Source: Actinomycetota bacterium
GTDB taxonomy: Bacteria; Actinomycetota; Actinomycetes; JACCUZ01
DNA length: 37,736 bases
Assembly: GCA_030841035.1 (NCBI GenBank)
Contig: JAVEDI010000090.1
Coordinates: 1 to 37,736 of the forward strand
Reading direction: 5' to 3'
Shown here: piece after piece, positions 2 through 25,164 of the stretch
Position numbering within the stretch: position 1 is the stretch's first letter
How the letters are laid out: each line of letters begins with the position of its first letter
The notes under the pieces: generated by a model
Databases searched by the model: none
Seen by the model: only the letters and a program-made list of their open reading frames with translations
What the model was told of the DNA's origin: nothing
Made by a program: the position numbers and the translations under genes

Positions 2-1276
2 GAGCCGGAGGAGACCGAGCCGGACACGTCCCTGCGCGACGAGCTGGCCGAGACGGCCCGGGCCCGGCGCGGCGGCGAGGTCGAGGCCCGGCTCGCCGTA
101 CGAACGGGGGAGGAGCGCGCCCGCGCCCTCTCCGGCCGGGCCGACTCCCTGTCCCGGGCCGCAGCCGAGCAGCGAGCGGCACGGGCCCGGCAGATCGAGC
201 GGCGCGAGCGCCGGGCCCGCGAGGCCGCGGTGGCGCGCGAGGTCGTGCTGGCCGCGCAGACCGCGCTCGGCCAGCTCGAGCACTCCATCGCGTTGGCGAC
301 GACCGATCGCGAGCAGGCCGAGAGCCTGCGCGCCGAGCGCGACGCCGAGCGTGCCGCGCTGCGGGGCCGGACCCGCGAGCTGTCGACCGAGCTGGACCGG
401 CTGACCGACAGCGTGCACCGCGACGAGGTGGCGCGTGCCGAGCAGCGGCTGCGCATCGAGGCGCTGCAGCAGAAGGCCCTCGAGGACCTCGGTGTCGAGT
501 CCGACGCGCTGCTGGCCGACTACGGCCCCGAGCAGCTGGTGCCGCCCTCGTTGAGCGCGCCGGGCGACGAGGAGGTCGACCCCGAGGCGCCCGAGAGCCG
601 GCCGCGACCCTACGTCCGCGCCGAGCAGGAGAAGCGGCTGCGCGCCGCGGAGCGCGCCCTCGCCCTGCTCGGCCGGGTCAACCCGCTGGCGCTGGAGGAG
701 TACGCCGCGCTCGAGGAACGCCACCAGTTCCTCGCCGAGCAGCTGGAGGACCTCAAGGCGACGCGGCGCGACCTGCTCGACATCATCCGCGAGGTCGACG
801 AGCGGGTGGAGCAGGTCTTCACCGCCGCCTACCACGACACGGCCCGCGAGTTCGAGGGGGTCTTCGCCCGGCTGTTCCCCGGCGGGGAGGGCCGACTGGT
901 GCTCACCGAGCCCTCCGACATGCTCGCGACCGGCATCGAGGTCGAGGCCCGACCGCCCGGCAAGAAGGTCAAGCGGCTCTCGCTGCTCTCCGGTGGCGAG
1001 CGCTCCCTGACCGCCGTGGCGCTGCTGGTGGCGATCTTCAAGGCGCGCCCGAGTCCCTTCTACGTCATGGACGAGGTGGAGGCCGCGCTGGACGACGTCA
1101 ACCTGGGCCGGTTGATCGCGCTCCTGGAGGAGCTGCGGGAGGCCTCCCAGCTGATCGTGATCACCCACCAGAAGCGCACCATGGAGATCGCCGATGCGCT
1201 GTACGGCGTGTCCATGCGCGGCGACGGCGTCACCGGCGTGATCGGTCAGCGGCTGCGCGAGGCCGAGCCGGCCTGA
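2..1276 (+). CDS. smc: Chromosome segregation protein SMC, 3' part
   Basis: This is the C-terminal 424 residues of the SMC ATPase; the reading frame is open from base 2, so the gene starts before the window. Full-length SMC is usually about 1,150-1,200 residues. The first ~250 residues are Glu/Arg/Ala-rich coiled coil. The C-terminal head has the ABC signature LLSGGERSLTAVAL (about 985-1026), a Walker B FYVMDEVEAALDD (about 1059-1097) and the switch-region ITHQKRTM. SMC dimers with ScpA/ScpB organise and segregate the chromosome. The smc then ftsY order is common in actinobacteria. The end of the gene is clear (TGA at 1274-1276). Confidence 0.96.
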   Translation, partial: EPEETEPDTSLRDELAETARARRGGEVEARLAVRTGEERARALSGRADSLSRAAAEQRAARARQIERRERRAREAAVAREVVLAAQTALGQLEHSIALATTDREQAESLRAERDAERAALRGRTRELSTELDRLTDSVHRDEVARAEQRLRIEALQQKALEDLGVESDALLADYGPEQLVPPSLSAPGDEEVDPEAPESRPRPYVRAEQEKRLRAAERALALLGRVNPLALEEYAALEERHQFLAEQLEDLKATRRDLLDIIREVDERVEQVFTAAYHDTAREFEGVFARLFPGGEGRLVLTEPSDMLATGIEVEARPPGKKVKRLSLLSGGERSLTAVALLVAIFKARPSPFYVMDEVEAALDDVNLGRLIALLEELREASQLIVITHQKRTMEIADALYGVSMRGDGVTGVIGQRLREAEPA

Positions 1277-1284
1277 GCGCGCCC

Positions 1285-1306
1285 GGTCAAGGCAGGCGCC
1301 CTGACC
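1285..1306 (+). terminator. Possible smc hairpin terminator
   Basis: An inverted repeat starts 8 bases after the smc stop: GGTCA at 1285-1289 pairs with TGACC at 1302-1306, and an inner GG/CC pair follows one mismatch. There is no T-run, as is common in high-GC actinobacteria. The stem is short, so this is only a candidate. Confidence 0.25.
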
Positions 1307-1372
1307 AGGCGCGGCACGCGGGACCGGCGCGTGGCGGTGCGGCTGTTTGGCTGGCCCGATCAGGGAGACTCT

Positions 1373-1663
1373 GTGGATATGCGCGCTTTTCTGATCGCAG
1401 ACCTGGTCATCGGAGTCGTGGCCGCGCTCGTCGTGGCCTTCGTCGCCTTCCCCTATCGCGGCCGGACCGTGCCCAAGGCAGGACGGCTCTGTGACGCCGT
1501 CGCGGCGGTCGCGGACAAGGTCGACCCCGGGCCCGCACCGGTGCACGGCGTACTGAGCACGCCGGAGAAGTCCCGGCGGATGTCGCGCCGCTTCGAGCGC
1601 GTCGAGCGGGCGGTGCGGCACCCGAGCCGGGCGCTGGCCGCCGCCGGCCGCGGACGCGGCTGA
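1373..1663 (+). CDS. Small single-pass membrane protein, unknown function
   Basis: A 96-residue protein with one N-terminal membrane segment (FLIADLVIGVVAALVVAFVA, about residues 5-24), followed by a basic cytoplasmic tail rich in Arg. I chose the GTG at 1373 because GGGAG (1363-1367) lies 5 bases upstream. The ATG at 1379 and a GTG at 1331 are alternatives. It sits between smc and ftsY, about 44 bases before ftsY, but I do not recognise a family and cannot give a function. Codon use and GC match the neighbours. Confidence 0.6.
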   Translation: MDMRAFLIADLVIGVVAALVVAFVAFPYRGRTVPKAGRLCDAVAAVADKVDPGPAPVHGVLSTPEKSRRMSRRFERVERAVRHPSRALAAAGRGRG

Positions 1664-1707
1664 GGCGCCCGGCGGCCGGCGCCCGGGCCGCCTGAAAGAC
1701 TGACCGG

Positions 1708-2826
1708 ATGGACCCGCTCACTCTGCTCGTCGTGGCTCTCGCCCTGCTCGGGGTGGCTGCCGTGGCCTCGCTCGCGCTCGTCCGCGGCCGCGGCCGCCGG
1801 GCCCCGCTGCCGCCGCCCAGCGAGGCCGGGCCGGGGCCGGTCGAGCCGGACGTCGAGCCGGGGCTGGTCGAGCCGGGGCTGGTCGAGCCGGAGGTCGAGG
1901 CTCCCGAGCCCACCGCGGGGCGCCTGGCCCGGCTGCGCTCGCGCCTCGCGCGCTCGCAGAGCGCCATGGGCCGCGGGTTGTTGGCCCTGCTCTCGCGCGA
2001 CACGCTCGACGAGGCGACGTGGGAGGAGATCGAGGACACCCTGCTGAGCGCCGACGTGGGCGTCGGACCGACCCAGCAGCTGGTCGAACGGCTGCGCGCC
2101 CGGGTCTCGGCGCTGCCCGAGCGGGCTGCCGAGGACATGCGCCAGGCGCTGCGCGCCGAGCTGCTCGAGCTGATCGGCACCGAGGTCGACCGGTCGCTCG
2201 CCACGACGCAGGCCGGGCGTCCCGCGGTGGTCCTCGTGGTGGGCGTCAACGGCACAGGGAAGACGACCACGGTCGGCAAGCTGGCCCGGGTCCTGGTCGC
2301 CGACGGCCGCACCGTCCTGCTCGGGGCGGCGGACACGTTCCGCGCGGCTGCGGCCGACCAGCTCGCGACGTGGGGCGACCGGGTGGGTGCCCCGGTCGTG
2401 CGCGGGCCGGAGGCCGGCGACCCGGCGAGCGTGGCCTTCGACGCGGTGAAGCAGGGCATCGAGGGCGGGTACGACGTCGTGCTGCTGGACACCGCCGGGC
2501 GGCTGCAGAACAAGGTCGGGCTGATGGACGAGCTCGGCAAGGTCAAGCGGGTGGTGGAGAGGCACGGGCCGGTCGACGAGGTGCTGCTGGTGCTCGACGC
2601 GACCACGGGCCAGAACGGCCTGCTGCAGGCCCGCGTGTTCAGCGAGGTGGTCGACGTCACGGGCATCGTGCTGACCAAGCTGGACGGCACCGCCAAGGGC
2701 GGCATCGTCGTCGCGGTGCAGCGCGAGCTCGGCGTGCCGGTCAAGCTGGTCGGTCTCGGTGAGGGGCCCGACGACCTGGCTCCCTTCGAGCCCGAGGCCT
2801 TCGTCGACGCGTTGATCGACGGCTGA
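1708..2826 (+). CDS. ftsY: Signal recognition particle receptor FtsY
   Basis: A 372-residue SRP GTPase that docks SRP-ribosome complexes at the membrane. It starts with a membrane-like segment (LTLLVVALALLGVAAVASLAL), then an acidic linker built from repeated VEPGL/EPEVE units (about residues 45-70). The NG domain follows, with the P-loop GVNGTGKTTT (179-188), DTAGRL (261-266) and TKLDGTAKGG (323 onward). The N-terminal membrane anchor plus acidic linker is usual for actinobacterial FtsY. Its partner ffh lies 8 kb downstream at 10352. The start ATG has only a weak ribosome-binding site (GAAAG). Confidence 0.97.
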   Translation: MDPLTLLVVALALLGVAAVASLALVRGRGRRAPLPPPSEAGPGPVEPDVEPGLVEPGLVEPEVEAPEPTAGRLARLRSRLARSQSAMGRGLLALLSRDTLDEATWEEIEDTLLSADVGVGPTQQLVERLRARVSALPERAAEDMRQALRAELLELIGTEVDRSLATTQAGRPAVVLVVGVNGTGKTTTVGKLARVLVADGRTVLLGAADTFRAAAADQLATWGDRVGAPVVRGPEAGDPASVAFDAVKQGIEGGYDVVLLDTAGRLQNKVGLMDELGKVKRVVERHGPVDEVLLVLDATTGQNGLLQARVFSEVVDVTGIVLTKLDGTAKGGIVVAVQRELGVPVKLVGLGEGPDDLAPFEPEAFVDALIDG

Positions 2827-16565: not shown

Positions 16566-17498
16566 ATGACGAGCGACGACGGTCCGCGCTCGTCGGCACG
16601 GACGGGGGTCACCCCACCCGTCGCCGACACCGGGCCTGCTGTGCCCTCGTCCGACGAGCAGCCCGCCGCTGACCGGCAGCCGGCCCCCGACGGGGACCCG
16701 GCGGCGACCGCAGCAGGGGAGCAGGTGCCCGCCACACCGCCCGCTGACCGGCCGTCCGAGCGCGCGTCGGCCGCCGGACCTGCGTCCCGCACCGGCACCG
16801 GCAAGGACGCCGAGGCGCACAAGAAGTCGTTCCTGCGCGAGCTGCCCGGCATCGTGATCACGGCGCTGGTCATCTCGGTGCTCATCAAGACCTTCCTGGT
16901 GCAGGCGTTCTACATCCCGTCGGGCTCCATGGAGAACACCCTGCTCGTCAACGACCGCGTCCTGGTCAACAAGCTGGCCGACAAGCCCGACGAGGTCCGC
17001 CGCGGTGACGTCATCGTCTTCCGCGACCCGGGGGGCTGGCTGTCCGGTCCCGGCGAGATCGCCCAGAGCGGCGGGCTGCTCGCCACGGTCCGCAAGGGCC
17101 TGGTGTTCGTCGGGCTGGCCCCCGCCGCGGGCGAGGAGGACCTCATCAAGCGGGTCATCGGCGTGGGCGGCGACCGGGTCGACTCCAACGGCAGACACGC
17201 CATCACCGTCAACGGCGTGCCGCTCAAGGAGCCCTACCTGTACCCGACCGACCTCGACGTGCCCTCGGCCGAGCCGTTCTCGGTGGTCGTGCCGAAGGGT
17301 GAGCTGTGGGTCATGGGGGACCACCGCTCGGTCTCCGAGGACAGCCGGGCCCACCAGGGGCAGCCCGGGGGAGGGTTCGTGCCGGTCAAGGACGTCATCG
17401 GTCGCGCGTTCACGATCGTGTGGCCGGTCAACCGGGCCAAGCTGCTGCACCGGCCGGCCACGTTCGACCAGCCCAAGCTGACGTCGTCGTCGCGCTGA
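16566..17498 (+). CDS. lepB: Signal peptidase I (LepB)
   Basis: A 310-residue bacterial-type S26A signal peptidase that cleaves Sec/Tat signal peptides. After ~85 disordered Pro/Ala-rich residues comes one membrane helix (about 94-113), then the catalytic serine S121 in YIPSGSMENTL and the general base lysine K195 in LIKRVIGVGGDRV; GELWVMGDHRSVSEDSRAH is the C-terminal box. The ATG at 16566 has GGAGGA 9 bases upstream. This Ser/Lys enzyme contrasts with the Ser/His SipW-like enzyme at 21904-23439. Placement between rplS and rnhB is the usual actinobacterial order. Confidence 0.95.
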   Translation: MTSDDGPRSSARTGVTPPVADTGPAVPSSDEQPAADRQPAPDGDPAATAAGEQVPATPPADRPSERASAAGPASRTGTGKDAEAHKKSFLRELPGIVITALVISVLIKTFLVQAFYIPSGSMENTLLVNDRVLVNKLADKPDEVRRGDVIVFRDPGGWLSGPGEIAQSGGLLATVRKGLVFVGLAPAAGEEDLIKRVIGVGGDRVDSNGRHAITVNGVPLKEPYLYPTDLDVPSAEPFSVVVPKGELWVMGDHRSVSEDSRAHQGQPGGGFVPVKDVIGRAFTIVWPVNRAKLLHRPATFDQPKLTSSSR

Positions 17499-19138: not shown

Positions 19139-20697
19139 CGCTGGCCCGGACCCGGTGCATCGCGCTGGTCGGCGTCGCCGGGCACCTGGTGGACGTCGAG
19201 GCGGACCTGAGCCCGGGTGTGCCGTCCTACGTTCTGGTAGGGCTGCCGGACGCGTCCCTCTCGGAGTCGCGCGACCGGGTGCGGGCGGCACTGGTGAACA
19301 GCCGCCAGCGCTGGCCCTCCACGACCCGGCGGCTCACCGTCAACCTGTCGCCGGCGAGCCTGCCCAAGCGTGGCTCGGGCTTCGACCTCGCGATCGCGAT
19401 GGCCGTGCTCGCCGCGGACGGGGTGGTGCCCTGCTCGGTCGTGGCCGGCGCGGTGCTGCTGGGCGAGCTCGGGCTCGACGGGCGGGTCCGCGGGGTGCGC
19501 GGCGTCCTGCCCTCGGTGCTCGCGGCGGTGGAAGCGGGGGTGGAACGGGTCGTCGTGCCGGCGGACAACGCGAAGGAGGCCGCGCTGGTGCCCGGCGTGC
19601 ACGTGACGGGCGTGCGGTCGCTGGCCGAGCTCATCGCGCTCGCGCGCGACGAGCGGCCGCCCGAGGACGTCCTGGACGTCCCGGACACGCAGCCCGACGT
19701 GGCGCCGGCGGTGCCACCCGAGCCACTGCGGCGGTTGGACCTGGCCGACGTGCTGGGCCAGGCGCTGGCTCGTGCGGTGCTCGAGGTGGCCGCCGCGGGC
19801 GGGCACCACCTGCTCATGCTCGGGCCCCCCGGCGCGGGCAAGACCATGCTGGCCGAGCGGCTGCCGGGCATCCTGCCGGGACTGGACACCGCCGCGGCGC
19901 TCGAGGTGACCGCCGTGCACTCGGTCGCCGGCACGTTGCCGGCGGGGGAACCGCTGGTCACCCGCCCACCGTTCCAGGCGCCGCACCACACGGCGTCCGT
20001 GGCAGCCATCGTCGGGGGCGGCTCGGCGCACGTACGACCGGGTGCGGCCTCGCTCGCGCATCGCGGCGTGCTGTTCATGGACGAGGCGCCCGAGTTCGCG
20101 CCGGCCGTGCTCGATGCGTTGCGCGAGCCGCTGGAGTCGGGGGAGATCTGCGTCTCCCGGTTGGCCGCCCAGGTGCGCTTCCCGGCCCGCTTCCAGCTGG
20201 TGCTGGCCGCCAACCCGTGCCCGTGCGGCCAGTCGATCGGCAAGGGGCTGGCGTGCACCTGCTCACCGATGGCCAAGCTGCGCTATTTCGGGCGGCTCTC
20301 GGGCCCGCTGCTGGATCGGGTGGACCTGCGCCACGAGATGGGGCCGCCCACTCGCAGCGAGCTGCTGGCCGACCAGGGTCGCGCCGAGCCCAGCGCCGTG
20401 GTGGCCGAGCGGGTGGCCCTGGCCCGCGAGCGGATGGCCGCCCGGCTGCGGGACACGCAGTGGCGGGCCAACAGCGAGGTGCCCGGTCACGTGTTGCGCC
20501 GTGACTGGCCGCTGCCGTGGGACGTGGTGGCGCCGGCCGAGCGAGCGCTCGACCGCGGGGAGCTGACCGCGCGTGGGGTCGATCGTGTCCTGCGGGTGGC
20601 GTGGACCCTCGCCGACCTGGTCGGGCTCGACCGGCCGGGCACCGCCCAGGTGGCGGCGGCGCTGCGCTACCGCGGCGTGCGGGACCGGGCGGCATGA
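19135..20697 (+). CDS. yifB: YifB family Mg-chelatase-like AAA ATPase (ComM-like)
   Basis: A 520-residue protein: an N-terminal Lon-protease-like fold ([26 protein letters not shown]), a central AAA+ Mg-chelatase domain with Walker A GPPGAGKT (230-237) and Walker [11 protein letters not shown], and a C-terminal lid. A Cys cluster, [17 protein letters not shown], is family-typical. The relative ComM is a hexameric helicase that aids branch migration in natural transformation. The GTG start overlaps yraN; the stop overlaps dprA (ATGA). Confidence 0.94.
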
Positions 20698-21866
20698 CCA
20701 CGGTCCCCGACCCCGAGGTGTGGGCCCGGGCCGCGCTGAGCCGGCTGGCCGAGCCTGACGACGTCTCGCTGGGCGCACAGGTCGACGACCGGGGGGCGGC
20801 CCAGGTGCTGGCCGAGATCCGCGAGGGCAGCTACCAGTCCGCGCGCATCGGCTCCTACCGAGCCCGGCTGGCGACCCTCGACGTCGCCGCCGACCTGGCC
20901 CGCGTGCGGGGGCTCGGCGGCCGGCTGGTCACACCCGGCGCTCTCGAGTGGCCCGGCTGTCTCGACGATCTCGGCCCGCGCCGCCCGCTGATCCTCTGGG
21001 TGACCGGTGAGGGCGACCTGTCGCTGCTGACCCGCCGCGCCGTCGCGGTCGTCGGCGCGCGGGCCTGCAGCAGCTACGGCGAGCACGTCGCGGTCGACCT
21101 GGGGGCCGGGCTCGCCCAGCGCGGCTGGACGGTCGTGTCCGGGGCCGCCTTCGGCATCGACGTGGCGGCCCACCGCGGCGCGCTGGCGACCGAGGGCGGC
21201 ACCGTCGCCGTGCTGGCCTGTGGTGTCGACATCGTCTATCCCAGCGCGCACGGGAGGCTGCTGTCCGCCGTGCGGCGCGGCGGGGTCGTGATCTCTGAGG
21301 TGCCGCCGGGCGCCCGGCCGACCAAGAGCCGGTTCCTCGCCCGCAACCGGGTGATCGCCGCCCTCAGCCGGGGAACGGTGGTGGTCGAGGCGGCGATCCG
21401 CAGCGGTGCCCGCAACACCGCCGGGCACGCGGAGAGCCTGTCGCGCCCCGTGATGGCGGTCCCGGGTCCCGTCACCTCGCCCATGTCCGCGGGCTGCCAC
21501 GAGCTCATCCGGCTGGGCGCGTCGATGGTGACCGACAGCGCCGACGTCATCGAGCTCGTCGGGGCTCTGGGCGACGACGCGGCCCCGGAGCGCCGCGGCG
21601 AGCAGCGGGCCCACGACGGCCTCGACGAACCCACCCTGCGGGTGCTCGACGCGCTCCCGGTCCGGCAGTACGCCGGCCTGTCCAGCATCGCCCGGGTCGC
21701 CGGTCTCGACGATCCGACCGTGCTGCAGGCGCTCGCGCTGCTCACCGTGCGTGACCTCGCGGTCGAGCGCAGCGGCACCTGGCGGCGCGCGCTCGAGCAC
21801 GGCCAGCCCCAGGTCCCGCCACGCGGCGGTGCTGCTTGCCACGGTGCGTCGGGGCCCGCGCAGTAG
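20694..21866 (+). CDS. dprA: DNA-processing protein DprA
   Basis: A 390-residue DprA/Smf protein that loads RecA on incoming single-stranded DNA. The Rossmann core has AVVGARACSSYGEHVA, SGAAFGIDVAAHRGAL, CGVDIVYPSAH, ISEVPPGARPTKSRFLARNRVIAAL and PGPVTSPMSAG. A C-terminal winged-helix domain (about 310-370) follows. The last ~27 residues, after TWRR, are Gly/Pro/Ala-rich and lie in the ~100-bp repeat that flanks the downstream island. Compared with the other repeat copy at 24110 there is a 1-base indel, so this tail may be frameshifted. Confidence 0.94.
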   Translation: MTTVPDPEVWARAALSRLAEPDDVSLGAQVDDRGAAQVLAEIREGSYQSARIGSYRARLATLDVAADLARVRGLGGRLVTPGALEWPGCLDDLGPRRPLILWVTGEGDLSLLTRRAVAVVGARACSSYGEHVAVDLGAGLAQRGWTVVSGAAFGIDVAAHRGALATEGGTVAVLACGVDIVYPSAHGRLLSAVRRGGVVISEVPPGARPTKSRFLARNRVIAALSRGTVVVEAAIRSGARNTAGHAESLSRPVMAVPGPVTSPMSAGCHELIRLGASMVTDSADVIELVGALGDDAAPERRGEQRAHDGLDEPTLRVLDALPVRQYAGLSSIARVAGLDDPTVLQALALLTVRDLAVERSGTWRRALEHGQPQVPPRGGAACHGASGPAQ

Positions 21867-21878
21867 GCCCGTGACGGG
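21779..21878 (+). repeat. Imperfect direct repeat, left copy (dprA 3' end)
   Basis: About 100 bp that match 24110-24208. The first 19 bases agree at 18 positions (CTGGCGGCGCGCG then TCGAG); a diverged 17-base stretch follows (16 in the other copy); then 64 bases align without gaps with 53 identities. The left copy covers the last 88 coding bases of dprA (through its stop) and 12 bases beyond. The two copies bracket the 2.3-kb riboswitch/SipW island. Confidence 0.8.
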
Positions 21879-21903: not shown

Positions 21904-23439
21904 TCAGACGCCGGCGCTGACGGTCGCGCTGCTCTCGCCCTGCGGCGCCCGCGTGCTGTATCGGTAGGTCACGCCCTCATCCTGCACGATGTAGGTGTCC
22001 ACTCCGCTGCGCGACCAGTGCAGGACGAGCAGGCCGTAGCGCTCGGCGAGGCGGACGAGCATGGGGAACTCGCTGACGTCGACGACCGGGCGCCCGGGCG
22101 CGGCGGCCACCGGCTGGACGGACAGCAGCAACTGACCGTGCTGGCGGCGGATCCGCTCGGACTCGGCGAGCGGCTGCGACCGACGGGCGATCAGGGCAAG
22201 CAGTCCGGCGATGACCGCGGCCAGGCCCACGGCTGCGGCCGAGACCTTCCGGGCCAGCGCCCCGGTCATCGAACGGCCCGTGAAGGTCAGCCGGCTCGCC
22301 GCCTGTCGGGTCGAGGTGACGGGGGTCGATTCCTTGATGGTCAGCTTGGCGCCGTCGCCGTCGGTCAACCGCAGCGCGGTCGGGTCGAGCTGGAAGCTGA
22401 GCGTGGGCTCGAACGGTTGGGTGGTGCCGGGAGTGCTCACCGTCGGGGCGATGGTGACGCTGACGGCGCCGGCCGGGATGCCGGTCGCCTTCCCCGCCGC
22501 GTCGGCGCGCCGCTGCAGAGCACTCAGGTCGAGGCTGACCCTGCCGTCGTACCTGCCGCCGTCGAACGTCTCCCGACCGGAGAGCGGGACGGTTGAGCGC
22601 CACCCGCTGGACGTGGCCAGCTTCGCCGCCACCGAGACGGTGCCGTGGCCGCCCGGCGACGCGCCGGTGAATCGCAGGCGGAGCGTGACGTTGTCCGTCA
22701 GCCGGCGGAACACGGGCTCCGGGGCGGTAACGGTGGTTCCGTCGTATGCCGGCGACTGCGGGACCGTCGCGGTGTAGGAGAACTGCATCCGCGAGGTGGC
22801 CTGAGTCGACGCCGCGGTGGCGTGCTCGACCGGTCGCGTCCAGGCCACGAGTCCCAGGGCCGACCCCGCAATGCCGAGCGCCGCGGCGACCGCAGCCGTG
22901 GAACGCAACGCGGGCGGCAGGGCTGGCGCCCCCGTCGCGAGCCGCGTTCTAGGAGGTGCGGCATGGCGGGACACGTTGCGTTCCTTCCTGCGGCGGCGAC
23001 GGGTGCGGGTGAAAGCGGGGCCGCCGGTTGCGAACAGCGCGAACGCGGCGAGACCCAGTCCGCCAGGACTGGCGGCGCGCTTGAGCCAGAGTCCGCCCTG
23101 CGGGACGTGGAGGAGCGCCTTGCCGATCAGCTGGCTGTGCGTCGGCTTCTCCGGGTCTAGCCACGAGTTGTTGTCGCCCTTGAAGACGTACCGATCGCCT
23201 TCGATTGCCACGATGCGGTGCAGGACGACGGTGTTGAGCATCGGTGAGTCGTAGGCCGTAACGTCGCCGACCGCGTATGACGTCGCGGGACGAACGACGA
23301 CGAGGTCCCCAGGGCTGAACCGCGGCTGCATGGAGACGCCATGCGTCACCACGGCTCGGGGCACCTGGTCGACAAGCAGGACGAACGGGAGCACGGCGAC
23401 ACACAGCCCTAGCGCCCATAGCGCTCTGGCACGCCGCAT
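21904..23439 (-). CDS. SipW-like signal peptidase fused to a DUF5305-type domain
   Basis: A 511-residue membrane protein. Residues 1-145 are an S26B (SipW/archaeal/ER-type) signal peptidase: a membrane helix (7-24), S36 in THGVSMQP, H74 in VVLHRIV and D89 in FKGDNNSWLDP, so the general base is His and not Lys as in the LepB at 16566. A basic loop (RTRRRRRKER) follows, a second helix (about 181-200), and a large external beta-rich region (FSYTATVPQSPAYDGTTV onward) of the DUF5305 type. A last helix near residues 405-428 precedes a C-terminal tail containing LVLHWSRSGVDTYIVQDEG. The ATG at 23439 has GGGAG 7 bases upstream. Its substrate is probably the small protein encoded 44 bases upstream. 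The DUF5305 name is from memory of the family. Confidence 0.85.
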   Translation of the reverse strand: MRRARALWALGLCVAVLPFVLLVDQVPRAVVTHGVSMQPRFSPGDLVVVRPATSYAVGDVTAYDSPMLNTVVLHRIVAIEGDRYVFKGDNNSWLDPEKPTHSQLIGKALLHVPQGGLWLKRAASPGGLGLAAFALFATGGPAFTRTRRRRRKERNVSRHAAPPRTRLATGAPALPPALRSTAAVAAALGIAGSALGLVAWTRPVEHATAASTQATSRMQFSYTATVPQSPAYDGTTVTAPEPVFRRLTDNVTLRLRFTGASPGGHGTVSVAAKLATSSGWRSTVPLSGRETFDGGRYDGRVSLDLSALQRRADAAGKATGIPAGAVSVTIAPTVSTPGTTQPFEPTLSFQLDPTALRLTDGDGAKLTIKESTPVTSTRQAASRLTFTGRSMTGALARKVSAAAVGLAAVIAGLLALIARRSQPLAESERIRRQHGQLLLSVQPVAAAPGRPVVDVSEFPMLVRLAERYGLLVLHWSRSGVDTYIVQDEGVTYRYSTRAPQGESSATVSAGV

Positions 23440-23483: not shown

Positions 23484-23858
23484 CTAGTTGGCGACGAGCG
23501 CGAACTTGGTCGCGCCACCCACGGGCTGATTGACCGCACAGGTGTACGTCGTCTGCGAGGTCGCGTCGTACGTGCCGGCGTCGGAGCAGGTCGCGGGTGC
23601 CGCATCGTTGAAGGCAACCTGGATCGTCTTGCCAGTGGTGTCCGTGGCCAGGGTGAGCCCGACCGAAGTGATCGTGTCACCGGCAGCGTTGGTGTTGTAG
23701 GTGATGGCCGAAGCGGTCACCCCGGTGATGGTCTGGGACCCGTACCCCTTGACCACGCTCGGGGTGGGCACCTCGTTGCTGGCGGTGAAGGCGGAGCCGG
23801 CTGTGGCGATGACGCCGGCGATCGCGAGCGCTCCGAGGAGCTTGCTCTTGTGGTGCAT
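23484..23858 (-). CDS. Small secreted fibre-like protein with SipW-type signal peptide
   Basis: A 124-residue exported protein. The signal peptide is MHHKSKLLGALAIAGVIATA followed by GSAFTASN, the pattern seen in SipW-processed camelysin/TasA-like proteins. The mature part (about 100 residues) is rich in Thr, Ser, Ala and Gly with alternating beta-strand character (SQTITGVTASAITYNTNAAG) and two cysteines (C91, C107) that could form a disulfide. I chose the ATG at 23858: AAAGGA lies about 11 bases upstream and the frame before it is the riboswitch. It probably forms a surface filament or matrix protein; that is inference from the family resemblance and the adjacent SipW gene. Confidence 0.82.
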   Translation of the reverse strand: MHHKSKLLGALAIAGVIATAGSAFTASNEVPTPSVVKGYGSQTITGVTASAITYNTNAAGDTITSVGLTLATDTTGKTIQVAFNDAAPATCSDAGTYDATSQTTYTCAVNQPVGGATKFALVAN

Positions 23859-23879
23859 GGGTGGTGGCGTTCCTTTCAT

Positions 23880-23951
23880 TCGGTAGCCCGGCCGACCGCG
23901 TGGGTCCCGTGGCTTTGCGCCCCCGGCTCGCACCGGGTTTGCCCTTGTCTT
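23880..23951 (-). promoter_or_regulatory. Cyclic-di-GMP-I riboswitch (GEMM-I) in the fibre operon leader
   Basis: Read on the minus strand, the leader contains GGGCAAACC, a 6-bp P2 stem CCCGGU/GCCGGG capped by the GNRA tetraloop GCGA (plus-strand 23922-23937), GGCGCAAAGCCACGGG (the conserved CGCAAAGCC plus P3 side and tetraloop receptor), and GCCGGGCUACCG at the 3' end (plus 23881-23892). These are the conserved blocks of the GEMM-I aptamer, in order and at normal spacing. The aptamer ends 7 bases before AAAGGA, the ribosome-binding site of the fibre gene, so control of translation is likely, although whether c-di-GMP turns it on or off cannot be read. Confidence 0.92.
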
Positions 23952-24109
23952 GACGACCCTCTTGTCGTCCCCCCCGCCGATCACTTGACCGGTACACCCG
24001 ATTTTGAGGCGGAGCTACCAGAACATGTGGGTTGTCGGTGGCAGGTGAGCTGGTGAGGGGGGAGCAGATCCAGGTAGCTCTCCCTATCTAGTCCTCGCCC
24101 GGACAACCG

Positions 24110-24208
24110 CTGGCGGCGCGCGGTCGAGGGAAGCAGCGCCGAGCCCCGCCACGCAGCGGTGGTGCTTGCAACGGTGGCTGCGGGCCCGCACGGTAGGCGC
24201 GTGACGGT
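24110..24208 (+). repeat. Imperfect direct repeat, right copy (before xerC)
   Basis: Partner of 21779-21878, ending 5 bases before the xerC start. Read in the frame WRRAVEGSS...RHAAVVLATVAAGPHGRR it is open, and the matching frame of the left copy (RHAAVLLATVRRGPRSRP) is not the one dprA now uses. This looks like a remnant of an older dprA 3' end. Confidence 0.75.
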
Positions 24209-24213
24209 GGCCC

Positions 24214-25164
24214 ATGACTGACACGCCGGGCGAGCCCGACGGCGGTGGCGAGCTGCCGGCGGCGCTCGCCGGCGTCCTCGCCGACTACGAGCGCCACCTG
24301 CGATCGGAGCGTGGCCTGTCCCCGCACTCGGTACGGGCCTACGCCGGCGACGTGGGTTCGCTGCTCGAGCACGCCGCGCGGATGCGGCGTACGACGCCGG
24401 AGTCCCTCGACCTTGCGGTGCTGCGCAGCTGGCTGGCCCGGCAGGCCAGCTCCGGTCGGGCCCGCAGCACGCTGGCCCGCCGGGCCGCGGCCGCGCGGAC
24501 CTTCACCGGCTGGCTGGCCCGCACCGGGCGAGCACCCACCGACGCAGGGGCCCTGCTGGGCACGCCGCGGGGCGGCCGGACGCTGCCCGGCGTCCTGCGT
24601 CAGGACGAGGCCGGCGCCCTGCTCGACGTCGCCGCCGTCGCGGCCGACGACGACTCCCCCCTGGGGTTGCGCGACGTCGCGATGCTGGAGGTCCTCTACG
24701 CCACGGGCTGCCGGGTGGGCGAGCTGTGCGGCCTCGAGGACGACGACGTGGACTGGTCGCGGCGGGTCGTCCGCGTGCTGGGGAAGGGTGCGAAGGAGCG
24801 GGTGGTGCCCCTCGGTGTTCCCGCCGTGCGGGCCCTCGAGGCGTGGCTGGCGAGGGGCCGTCCCCAGCTGCGGGAAGCGAACAGCGGTTCAGCGTTGTTC
24901 CTGGGGGCACGAGGTAAACGTGTCGATCCGCGTACCGTGCGCCGAGTGGTCCACCGCCTGCTGGCGCACGTCGCGGGCGCCCCTGACCTGGGACCACACG
25001 GCCTCCGGCACTCCGCGGCGACCCACCTGCTCGAGGGAGGAGCCGACCTGAGAACCGTTCAAGAGCTTCTCGGCCACGCTACGCTCGCAACGACCCAGAT
25101 CTACACCCACGTGTCCGTTGACCGGCTGAAGGCGACATATGACCAAGCGCACCCACGGGCGTGA
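24214..25164 (+). CDS. xerC: Tyrosine recombinase XerC
   Basis: A 316-residue Xer recombinase that resolves chromosome dimers at dif with XerD. The N-terminal SAM-like domain ([20 protein letters not shown]) is intact. Catalytic residues: R167 (GCRVGEL), K191 (GKGAKERV), H262 and R265 (HGLRHS), H288 ([13 protein letters not shown]) and nucleophile Y297. All are present. Its place between dprA and whiG is the usual one in several actinobacteria, so it is the housekeeping recombinase and not an integrase of the adjacent island. No clear ribosome-binding site was seen before the ATG at 24214. Confidence 0.93.

Follow-up and report, generated by a model that had tools for sequence, protein, structure and literature searches.

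A signal peptidase fused to DUF5305 and its small secreted neighbor: a candidate c-di-GMP-controlled operon of Actinomycetota and Chloroflexota

Introduction

Why would a bacterium with an ordinary signal peptidase encode another one that is fused to a large extracytoplasmic domain and placed next to the gene of a small secreted protein? This question is raised by a stretch of 37,736 nucleotides from an Actinomycetota bacterium (assembly GCA_030841035.1, contig JAVEDI010000090.1), which we will refer to as the window. A preliminary description of the sequence had pictured the fusion as a SipW-like peptidase carrying an assembly or scaffold module, by which processing of a subunit could be coupled to its assembly on the cell surface.

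Our best explanation of the whole, which we regard as fairly probable, is a transferable two-gene operon that is controlled by a c-di-GMP riboswitch and encodes a dedicated peptidase together with its client(s), the product probably being a surface structure. As far as we found, none of the present members has been characterized experimentally; they are placed here from sequence and models. We will discuss the fusion protein and its family, the insertion that probably brought it, its putative clients, and the riboswitch, and then weigh the alternatives. The riboswitch, the RTX gene of the Chloroflexota loci, and the insertion site with its repeat did not figure in the preliminary description.

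Architecture of the fusion protein

The fusion gene (21904–23439, minus strand) is a single uninterrupted frame of 511 amino acids, with its ATG at 23439 and its stop at 21904. Residues 14–122 (23074–23400, minus strand) form an endoplasmic reticulum (ER)-type (S26B) peptidase domain matching NCBIfam TIGR02228 with 57.4 bits (cutoff 51.85; 60.4 bits in the genome-wide search), and residues 280–494 match Pfam PF17231 (DUF5305) with 41.4 bits (cutoff 29) over profile positions 1–217 of 217. Both profile searches that had been suggested as a check thus bear out the fusion of a Ser/His signal peptidase to DUF5305. The proposed active-site positions (Ser36, His74, and Asp89) hold as well and are, together with Asp95, invariant in all 80 aligned fusions.

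Among solved structures, the best sequence matches of the peptidase part are SEC11A/C. In fold comparisons, it superposes on SipA of Streptococcus pyogenes over 87 residues with an rmsd of 2.0 (Z 10.3) and on human SEC11C over 126 with an rmsd of 5.8 (Z 10.1). The label SipW-like is apt in as far as it denotes an ER-type Ser/His peptidase but not as a statement of orthology, since the SipW equivalog model NF046067 gives the window fusion only 21.8 bits against a cutoff of 190. The host genome contains a single DUF5305, a single member of the small-protein family, and no signal peptidase above the TIGR02228 cutoff other than the fusion. The LepB at 16566 is indeed a separate enzyme of the ordinary bacterial type, with Ser and Lys boxes and 129.5 bits to TIGR02227.

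The AlphaFold model of the fusion (80-row alignment, mean pLDDT 86.7) contains four helices (2–22, 125–139, 176–201, and 393–421), a beta-rich ectodomain (205–392), and an alpha/beta tail (426–495). The second and third of these helices span the membrane and, with a basic loop between them, make up the fusion joint (22837–23067, minus strand). The ectodomain, which is the extracytoplasmic Ig-like beta domain of DUF5305 (22264–22827, minus strand), is mostly modeled with a pLDDT >90, and the C-terminal cytoplasmic domain (21955–22164, minus strand) coincides with conserved alignment columns. Basic stretches occur at the N-terminus and around residues 145–155. Taken with the four helices, they are compatible with an N-in topology in which the peptidase is out, the loop in, the ectodomain out, and the tail in, in agreement with the external beta-rich region and cytoplasmic tail described before.

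The fold matches of the ectodomain are Ig/FnIII-like (Z 8–9) and include transglutaminase 3 (Z 9.0, rmsd 2.6 over 108), RbmA of Vibrio cholerae (Z 8.9, rmsd 2.4 over 98), and a subunit of the TRAP translocon (Z 8.0, rmsd 3.3 over 108). As modeled, this is a widespread type of fold, and such matches say nothing about function.

Spread and variants of the fusion family

Relatives were collected by scanning genome contigs with a profile of eight fusions, which gave 166 confirmed members, the best 80 of which were analyzed. Peptidase and DUF5305 share a single frame in 79 of these 80 loci (best 80 of 166), and the remaining one is truncated by the end of its contig; the fusion is a genuine protein family and not an artifact. 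Among the 80 aligned members (window included), Pfam recognizes a Peptidase_S24-like domain in 79 and, at E 0.01, DUF5305 in 65. The carriers among the best 80 of 166 belong to the Actinomycetota (44 loci) and the Chloroflexota (36 loci) and include named isolates of Blastococcus, Actinoplanes, and Arthrobacter, as well as Tepidiforma flava. In a quick tree, the two phyla mostly form groups of their own; a Rubrobacteraceae member (L044) is placed within the Chloroflexota, and Arthrobacter and Marmoricola are found among Frankiales-like rows.

Some members deviate from the common layout. In one genome (G029) the peptidase and DUF5305 parts are separate overlapping genes, split at the fusion joint. 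Peptidase and DUF5305 genes overlapping by 11 nt, with a small gene upstream, were seen at L013 (1340–3269, minus strand), either as an unfused form or as a frameshift in a metagenome bin. Another variant (L119, genome G350; 360–1463, minus strand) has the peptidase, the helices, and the C-terminal cytoplasmic domain without the ectodomain, and is preceded by a different small secreted gene (1487–1951, minus strand) that the small-protein profile does not detect. Since L119 keeps peptidase, tail, and a small neighbor, the ectodomain is not strictly needed.

Viral contigs gave 27 pattern matches, none of which was confirmed, and a plasmid search with the DUF5305 part of L044 had no match at E 1. 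Weak matches to DUF5305 were set aside as chance in two genomes, G624 (where the protein is a LepB) and G539. Three haloarchaeal megaplasmids (L109, L110, and L111) match the peptidase part only, and vWA proteins adjoin. At two of the three, proteins annotated with a "SipW-dependent-type signal peptide" and unnamed secreted proteins lie near the ER-type signal peptidase; Pfam detects no DUF5305 among the 10 proteins scanned from these neighborhoods. The megaplasmid loci are perhaps an archaeal analog lacking DUF5305.

Insertion between dprA and xerC

In the window, the two-gene unit lies between two host genes, namely dprA on the left (20694–21866, plus strand; DNA_processg_A match) and a xerC/xerD-type tyrosine recombinase gene on the right (24214–25164, plus strand; Phage_integrase and SAM-like N-terminal domain). 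A 74-nt direct repeat (plus strand) flanks the unit on both sides, one copy covering the 3′ end of dprA (21804–21877) and the other standing just ahead of xerC (24134–24207). The copies are 81% identical (60 of 74 nt), and elsewhere in the window no 74-nt match exceeds 41 of 74.

Of seven family-level relatives searched, six contain dprA, and in all six xerC follows directly and the two-gene unit is absent. One of these six is a genome of the same genus, which has one stretch related to the repeat before xerC. From these unit-free relatives and the bracketing repeat, we read the unit as gained by insertion. The sequence difference between the copies suggests either that the event is old or that dissimilar copies recombined. 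At 89 other loci, neither dprA nor xerC was found in the flanking DNA examined.

The small secreted protein as probable main client

The neighbor of the fusion gene (23484–23858, minus strand) encodes 124 amino acids, comprising a signal peptide with a conserved AFTASN..P tail and an Ig-like core (45–124) with Cys91 and Cys107. It stops 44 bases ahead of the ATG of the fusion gene, exactly the spacing first described for this likely substrate. In most cases this small protein is the sole neighbor that recurs. In 77 of the 80 loci (best 80 of 166), the gene immediately upstream encodes, in the same orientation, a homolog of it; the three exceptions (L027, L044, and L048) have at most ~270 nt of upstream DNA, which leaves no room for the gene. 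Two or three small genes stand in tandem at L050, L070, L078, L086, and L093, which suggests several subunit types; L070 (887–2974) and L078 (3585–4829) each have three tandem paralogs ahead of one fusion gene.

The co-occurrence survey proposed at the outset was extended to 393 genomes of the class, ranked by profiles made from linked pairs. The DUF part was found in eight, the small gene in seven, and both in six. In one of the two DUF-only genomes (G021) the locus is cut off by a contig edge, and the other is the L119 variant described above. The lone match to the small gene only (G310) lies in a 582-aa open frame that seems to hold the substrate-binding protein of a transporter, and we count it as probable chance. 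Where both proteins are present, their distances correlate over 73 loci (Mantel r 0.73), a value that none of 2000 permutations reached.

Conservation in the small protein (n = 80) is concentrated around the end of the signal peptide and the early mature part: A or G at position 23 (78), F24 (75), A26 (71), N28 (73), G38 (80), and G46 (79), with Cys91 and Cys107 at 79 each. The early mature tail thereby reads AF[TA]A.NTVP. Signal peptidase I prefers small residues at its cut site (the small-residue rule), and for this reason Ala23 is our choice for the residue preceding the cut and Phe24 for the one following it; the predicted site is thus approximately Ala23–Phe24.

In the AlphaFold model, the beta core (45–124) is confident and residues 18–43 are unplaced (pLDDT <50). 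The core is Ig-like with middling fold matches, the best one being VIA (Z 6.8), and Foldseek returned no match at E 0.001. Archaellins also appear (Z 5.5–5.6), which according to the tool possibly reflects just a common arrangement; TasA, TapA, and donor-strand archaeal pilins are not among the 50 fold matches listed. No sequence in the PDB is related to the small protein, and it belongs to no Pfam or NCBIfam family. None of the 80 small proteins gave a Pfam match to Peptidase_M73 (TasA/camelysin) at E 0.1, and the 22 NCBIfam families listed for them at the same threshold include none named for SipW-cognate signal peptides. A shared ancestry of the small protein and the ectodomain was considered and found unsupported (hhalign probability 0.2%).

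An RTX protein as probable second client in Chloroflexota

A secreted RTX-repeat gene follows the fusion directly in all 34 Chloroflexota loci with enough downstream DNA and in 1 of the 44 Actinomycetota loci (L087). All six downstream proteins that were scanned match PF00353 (30.9 to 65.9 bits, cutoff 23). Small RTX proteins are encoded downstream at, for example, L053 (6716–7102) and L080 (7378–7860).

The N-terminus of the RTX protein bears the block of the small protein in the form A-[ILV]-A-A-[TA]-N-T-[VI]-P, with mostly I/V/L instead of F at the aromatic position. Of 8984 stop-to-stop frames, 54 contain a strict form of the client motif, and all 54 are members of the two client families, 50 being among the listed members and four being small-family members of additional loci. 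Within the families, 33 of the 84 upstream proteins and 17 of the 30 downstream ones have the motif in full. A common block at the N-terminus of otherwise unrelated mature domains is what one shared dedicated peptidase is expected to demand.

A c-di-GMP riboswitch ahead of the operon

The 5′ leader of the small gene in the window contains a c-di-GMP-I type riboswitch aptamer (23878–23952, minus strand), 19 nt before the ATG. It matches RF03167 (c-di-GMP-I-GGC) over its full length with 61.9 bits (gathering score 59, E 2e-12). Our own model R1, built from 25 aptamer sequences, gives 75.1 bits, the window sequence being part of the model. In the helices of these 25 sequences, 7 of 16 pairs show two-sided changes, and none of 500 shuffles is as high. 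The ligand predicted for the window aptamer is c-di-GMP, its best-scoring model being the GGC variant RF03167.

All 80 loci were searched with Rfam, and c-di-GMP aptamers were found ahead of the small gene in 27 of them (9 Actinomycetota and 18 Chloroflexota). The models matched at these loci or in the window are RF01051, RF03167, RF01786, and RF03169, which cover both c-di-GMP-I and c-di-GMP-II. Class II aptamers occupy the place of class I at L102 (4406–4488) and L069 (4197–4281), i.e., a structurally unrelated RNA precedes the same operon. The only other Rfam match in the 80 loci is a 16S rRNA (L058). Model R1 adds three loci from outside its alignment (L024, L134 in G028, and L019 in G656), all at E 4e-7 or better and each before the small gene, and over 888,144 bases it gives no further match below E 0.04. 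At the gathering score 53 of the 80 loci have no riboswitch, including all 22 of the Geodermatophilaceae clade. A limited search of the literature turned up no paper that ties c-di-GMP riboswitches to such a signal peptidase operon.

How the switch acts seems to differ between the phyla. A terminator-like hairpin follows the aptamer in 13 of 18 Chloroflexota leaders (0.6 expected from shuffles), whereas none was seen in 10 Actinomycetota leaders, where the gene starts 14–35 nt past the aptamer; the window leader shows no terminator. Hence, the Chloroflexota switches probably act on transcription and the Actinomycetota switches on translation.

The sign of the switch is suggested by two hints that point in opposite directions. 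In 12 of the 13 Chloroflexota hairpin loci, the 3′ strand of the aptamer can pair over 7–8 nt with the 5′ arm of the hairpin (only 4 at L096), which would make c-di-GMP an OFF signal there; in those 12 loci, 0.5 to 15.5% of shuffled arms reach the same pairing. In the window leader, the fold of minimum energy differs from the aptamer and does not exceed shuffled sequences in stability (z −0.74); this fold pairs the start codon with the aptamer, which hints at ON. Whatever its sign may be, we hold control of the window operon by c-di-GMP to be very likely.

Comparison with known systems

The closest parallel is offered by SipW–TasA–TapA of the Bacillus biofilm matrix fibers, in which an ER-type peptidase gene likewise stands beside one or more secreted beta-rich clients (PMC10269814, PMC9674648, and PMC10151520) and an aromatic residue lies right behind the expected cut. 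In TasA, a Phe just after the cut (P2′) goes along with poor cleavage by LepB, and processing is performed by SipW (as described in PMC10269814). A second, regulatory role of Bacillus subtilis SipW is stated in PMC13082335. On the other hand, SipW is not described with a DUF5305 fusion, and the present client is of another family, with mature domains of ~100 amino acids and no TasA/camelysin Pfam match. Control differs as well, by the SinR repressor in the accounts of the Bacillus system that we drew on and by a c-di-GMP riboswitch in the other phyla considered here. Judged by the sequence tests made, the present system would work like SipW–TasA, yet its proteins are orthologs of neither SipW nor TasA.

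Many Pfam members of DUF5305 are archaeal proteins, and the window fusion matches the full profile above its cutoff. Our literature searches found no paper on DUF5305 and no description of the present system. Archaeal bundling pili and threads are built of Sec-secreted beta-domain subunits that are cut by a signal peptidase I and assembled by donor strand (for the threads, PMC9715654). This resemblance concerns the type of subunit and its cleavage; no sequence link to the present system was found. That donor-strand exchange occurs here too is our guess, drawn from the conserved N-terminal tail (residues 18–43) that the model leaves unplaced.

SipA serves sortase-type pili, which sets it apart, and the present fusions differ from it in having intact catalytic residues. 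They share the peptidase fold, and SipA is, as the title of its report has it, a signal peptidase homolog needed for pilus polymerization.

Proposed function and alternatives

In the mechanism that we propose, the fused membrane protein would be a dedicated ER-type (Ser/His) signal peptidase, with the small protein of the preceding gene as its main client and, in Chloroflexota, the RTX-repeat protein of the following gene as a second one. A cut near Ala23–Phe24 would leave a conserved mature N-terminal tail of approximately FTASN..P. By analogy, the aromatic residue behind the cut would fit the case of TasA, in which poor cleavage by LepB makes a special peptidase necessary. Client processing by the fusion is strongly supported, and we are highly confident that the small protein has its dedicated peptidase in the fusion; the cleavage of these particular clients and its exact site are what we infer.

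The mature clients, with their compact beta domains, would probably form a surface structure (a fiber or matrix). The Ig-like ectodomain would hold or hand on the newly cut subunit, and the cytoplasmic tail would tie the complex to the cell interior. We put forward only tentatively that the product is a fiber or matrix built with the help of the ectodomain. The coupling of processing to assembly that had been proposed for the fusion thus stands as regards a linked, likely substrate; the assembly module itself stays conjectural, given a common Ig-like fold and a variant (L119) that does without it.

A bolder version, which we consider speculative, is that of a hitherto unrecognized class of surface filament or matrix in Actinomycetota and Chloroflexota. 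It would be a c-di-GMP-switched cassette, spread between the two phyla, in which peptidase, extracytoplasmic assembly chaperone, and cytoplasmic adaptor are united in one protein, small Ig-like subunits are joined via their newly cut, handed-over N-terminal strand, and a calcium-binding RTX protein is the second component in Chloroflexota.

Could the pair function without any assembly, the fusion merely cleaving and releasing a small secreted effector or adhesin, and the ectodomain just binding the client for cleavage? We think this unlikely, though it accounts for the linkage, the catalytic residues, and the shared client motif, and draws strength from L119 and from the lack of support for polymerization of the small protein. 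However, it leaves unexplained why the mature tail past the cut is conserved (G38 in 80/80, G46 in 79/80, and N28 in 73/80) and why an RTX partner is present at all testable Chloroflexota loci.

It is quite improbable that the protein is mainly a sensor or regulator, with peptidase and ectodomain sensing either the client or the surface while signals pass inward through the cytoplasmic tail. The regulatory role reported for B. subtilis SipW (PMC13082335) and the retention of the conserved cytoplasmic domain in L119 despite loss of the ectodomain speak for it. The catalytic residues are nevertheless invariant in 80/80 members, meaning that cleavage is kept, and a rough gene list shows no recurring regulator gene next door.

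Finally, a merger of two adjacent genes by sequencing error can practically be dismissed: the separate overlapping genes of G029 and the GTG with upstream AAGGAA at the window joint would suit it, but the in-frame fusion in 79 of 80 records (best 80 of 166) from two phyla refutes it for the family.

Significance

If our preferred reading of a dedicated peptidase with its client(s) and a probable surface structure is right, its meaning reaches beyond this locus. Biofilm matrix fibers that have a signal peptidase to themselves are known in detail chiefly from Bacillus, and the present system would be a second, independent-looking one in two other phyla. New are the client family, which has no name as yet, and a peptidase with a putative assembly module of its own; a function is thereby on offer for DUF5305. 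The c-di-GMP riboswitch provides a direct regulatory handle that predicts when the product is made, and thus a testable tie between second-messenger signaling and a surface structure in Actinomycetota and Anaerolineae. Owing to the named isolates among the carriers, the system is open to such testing.
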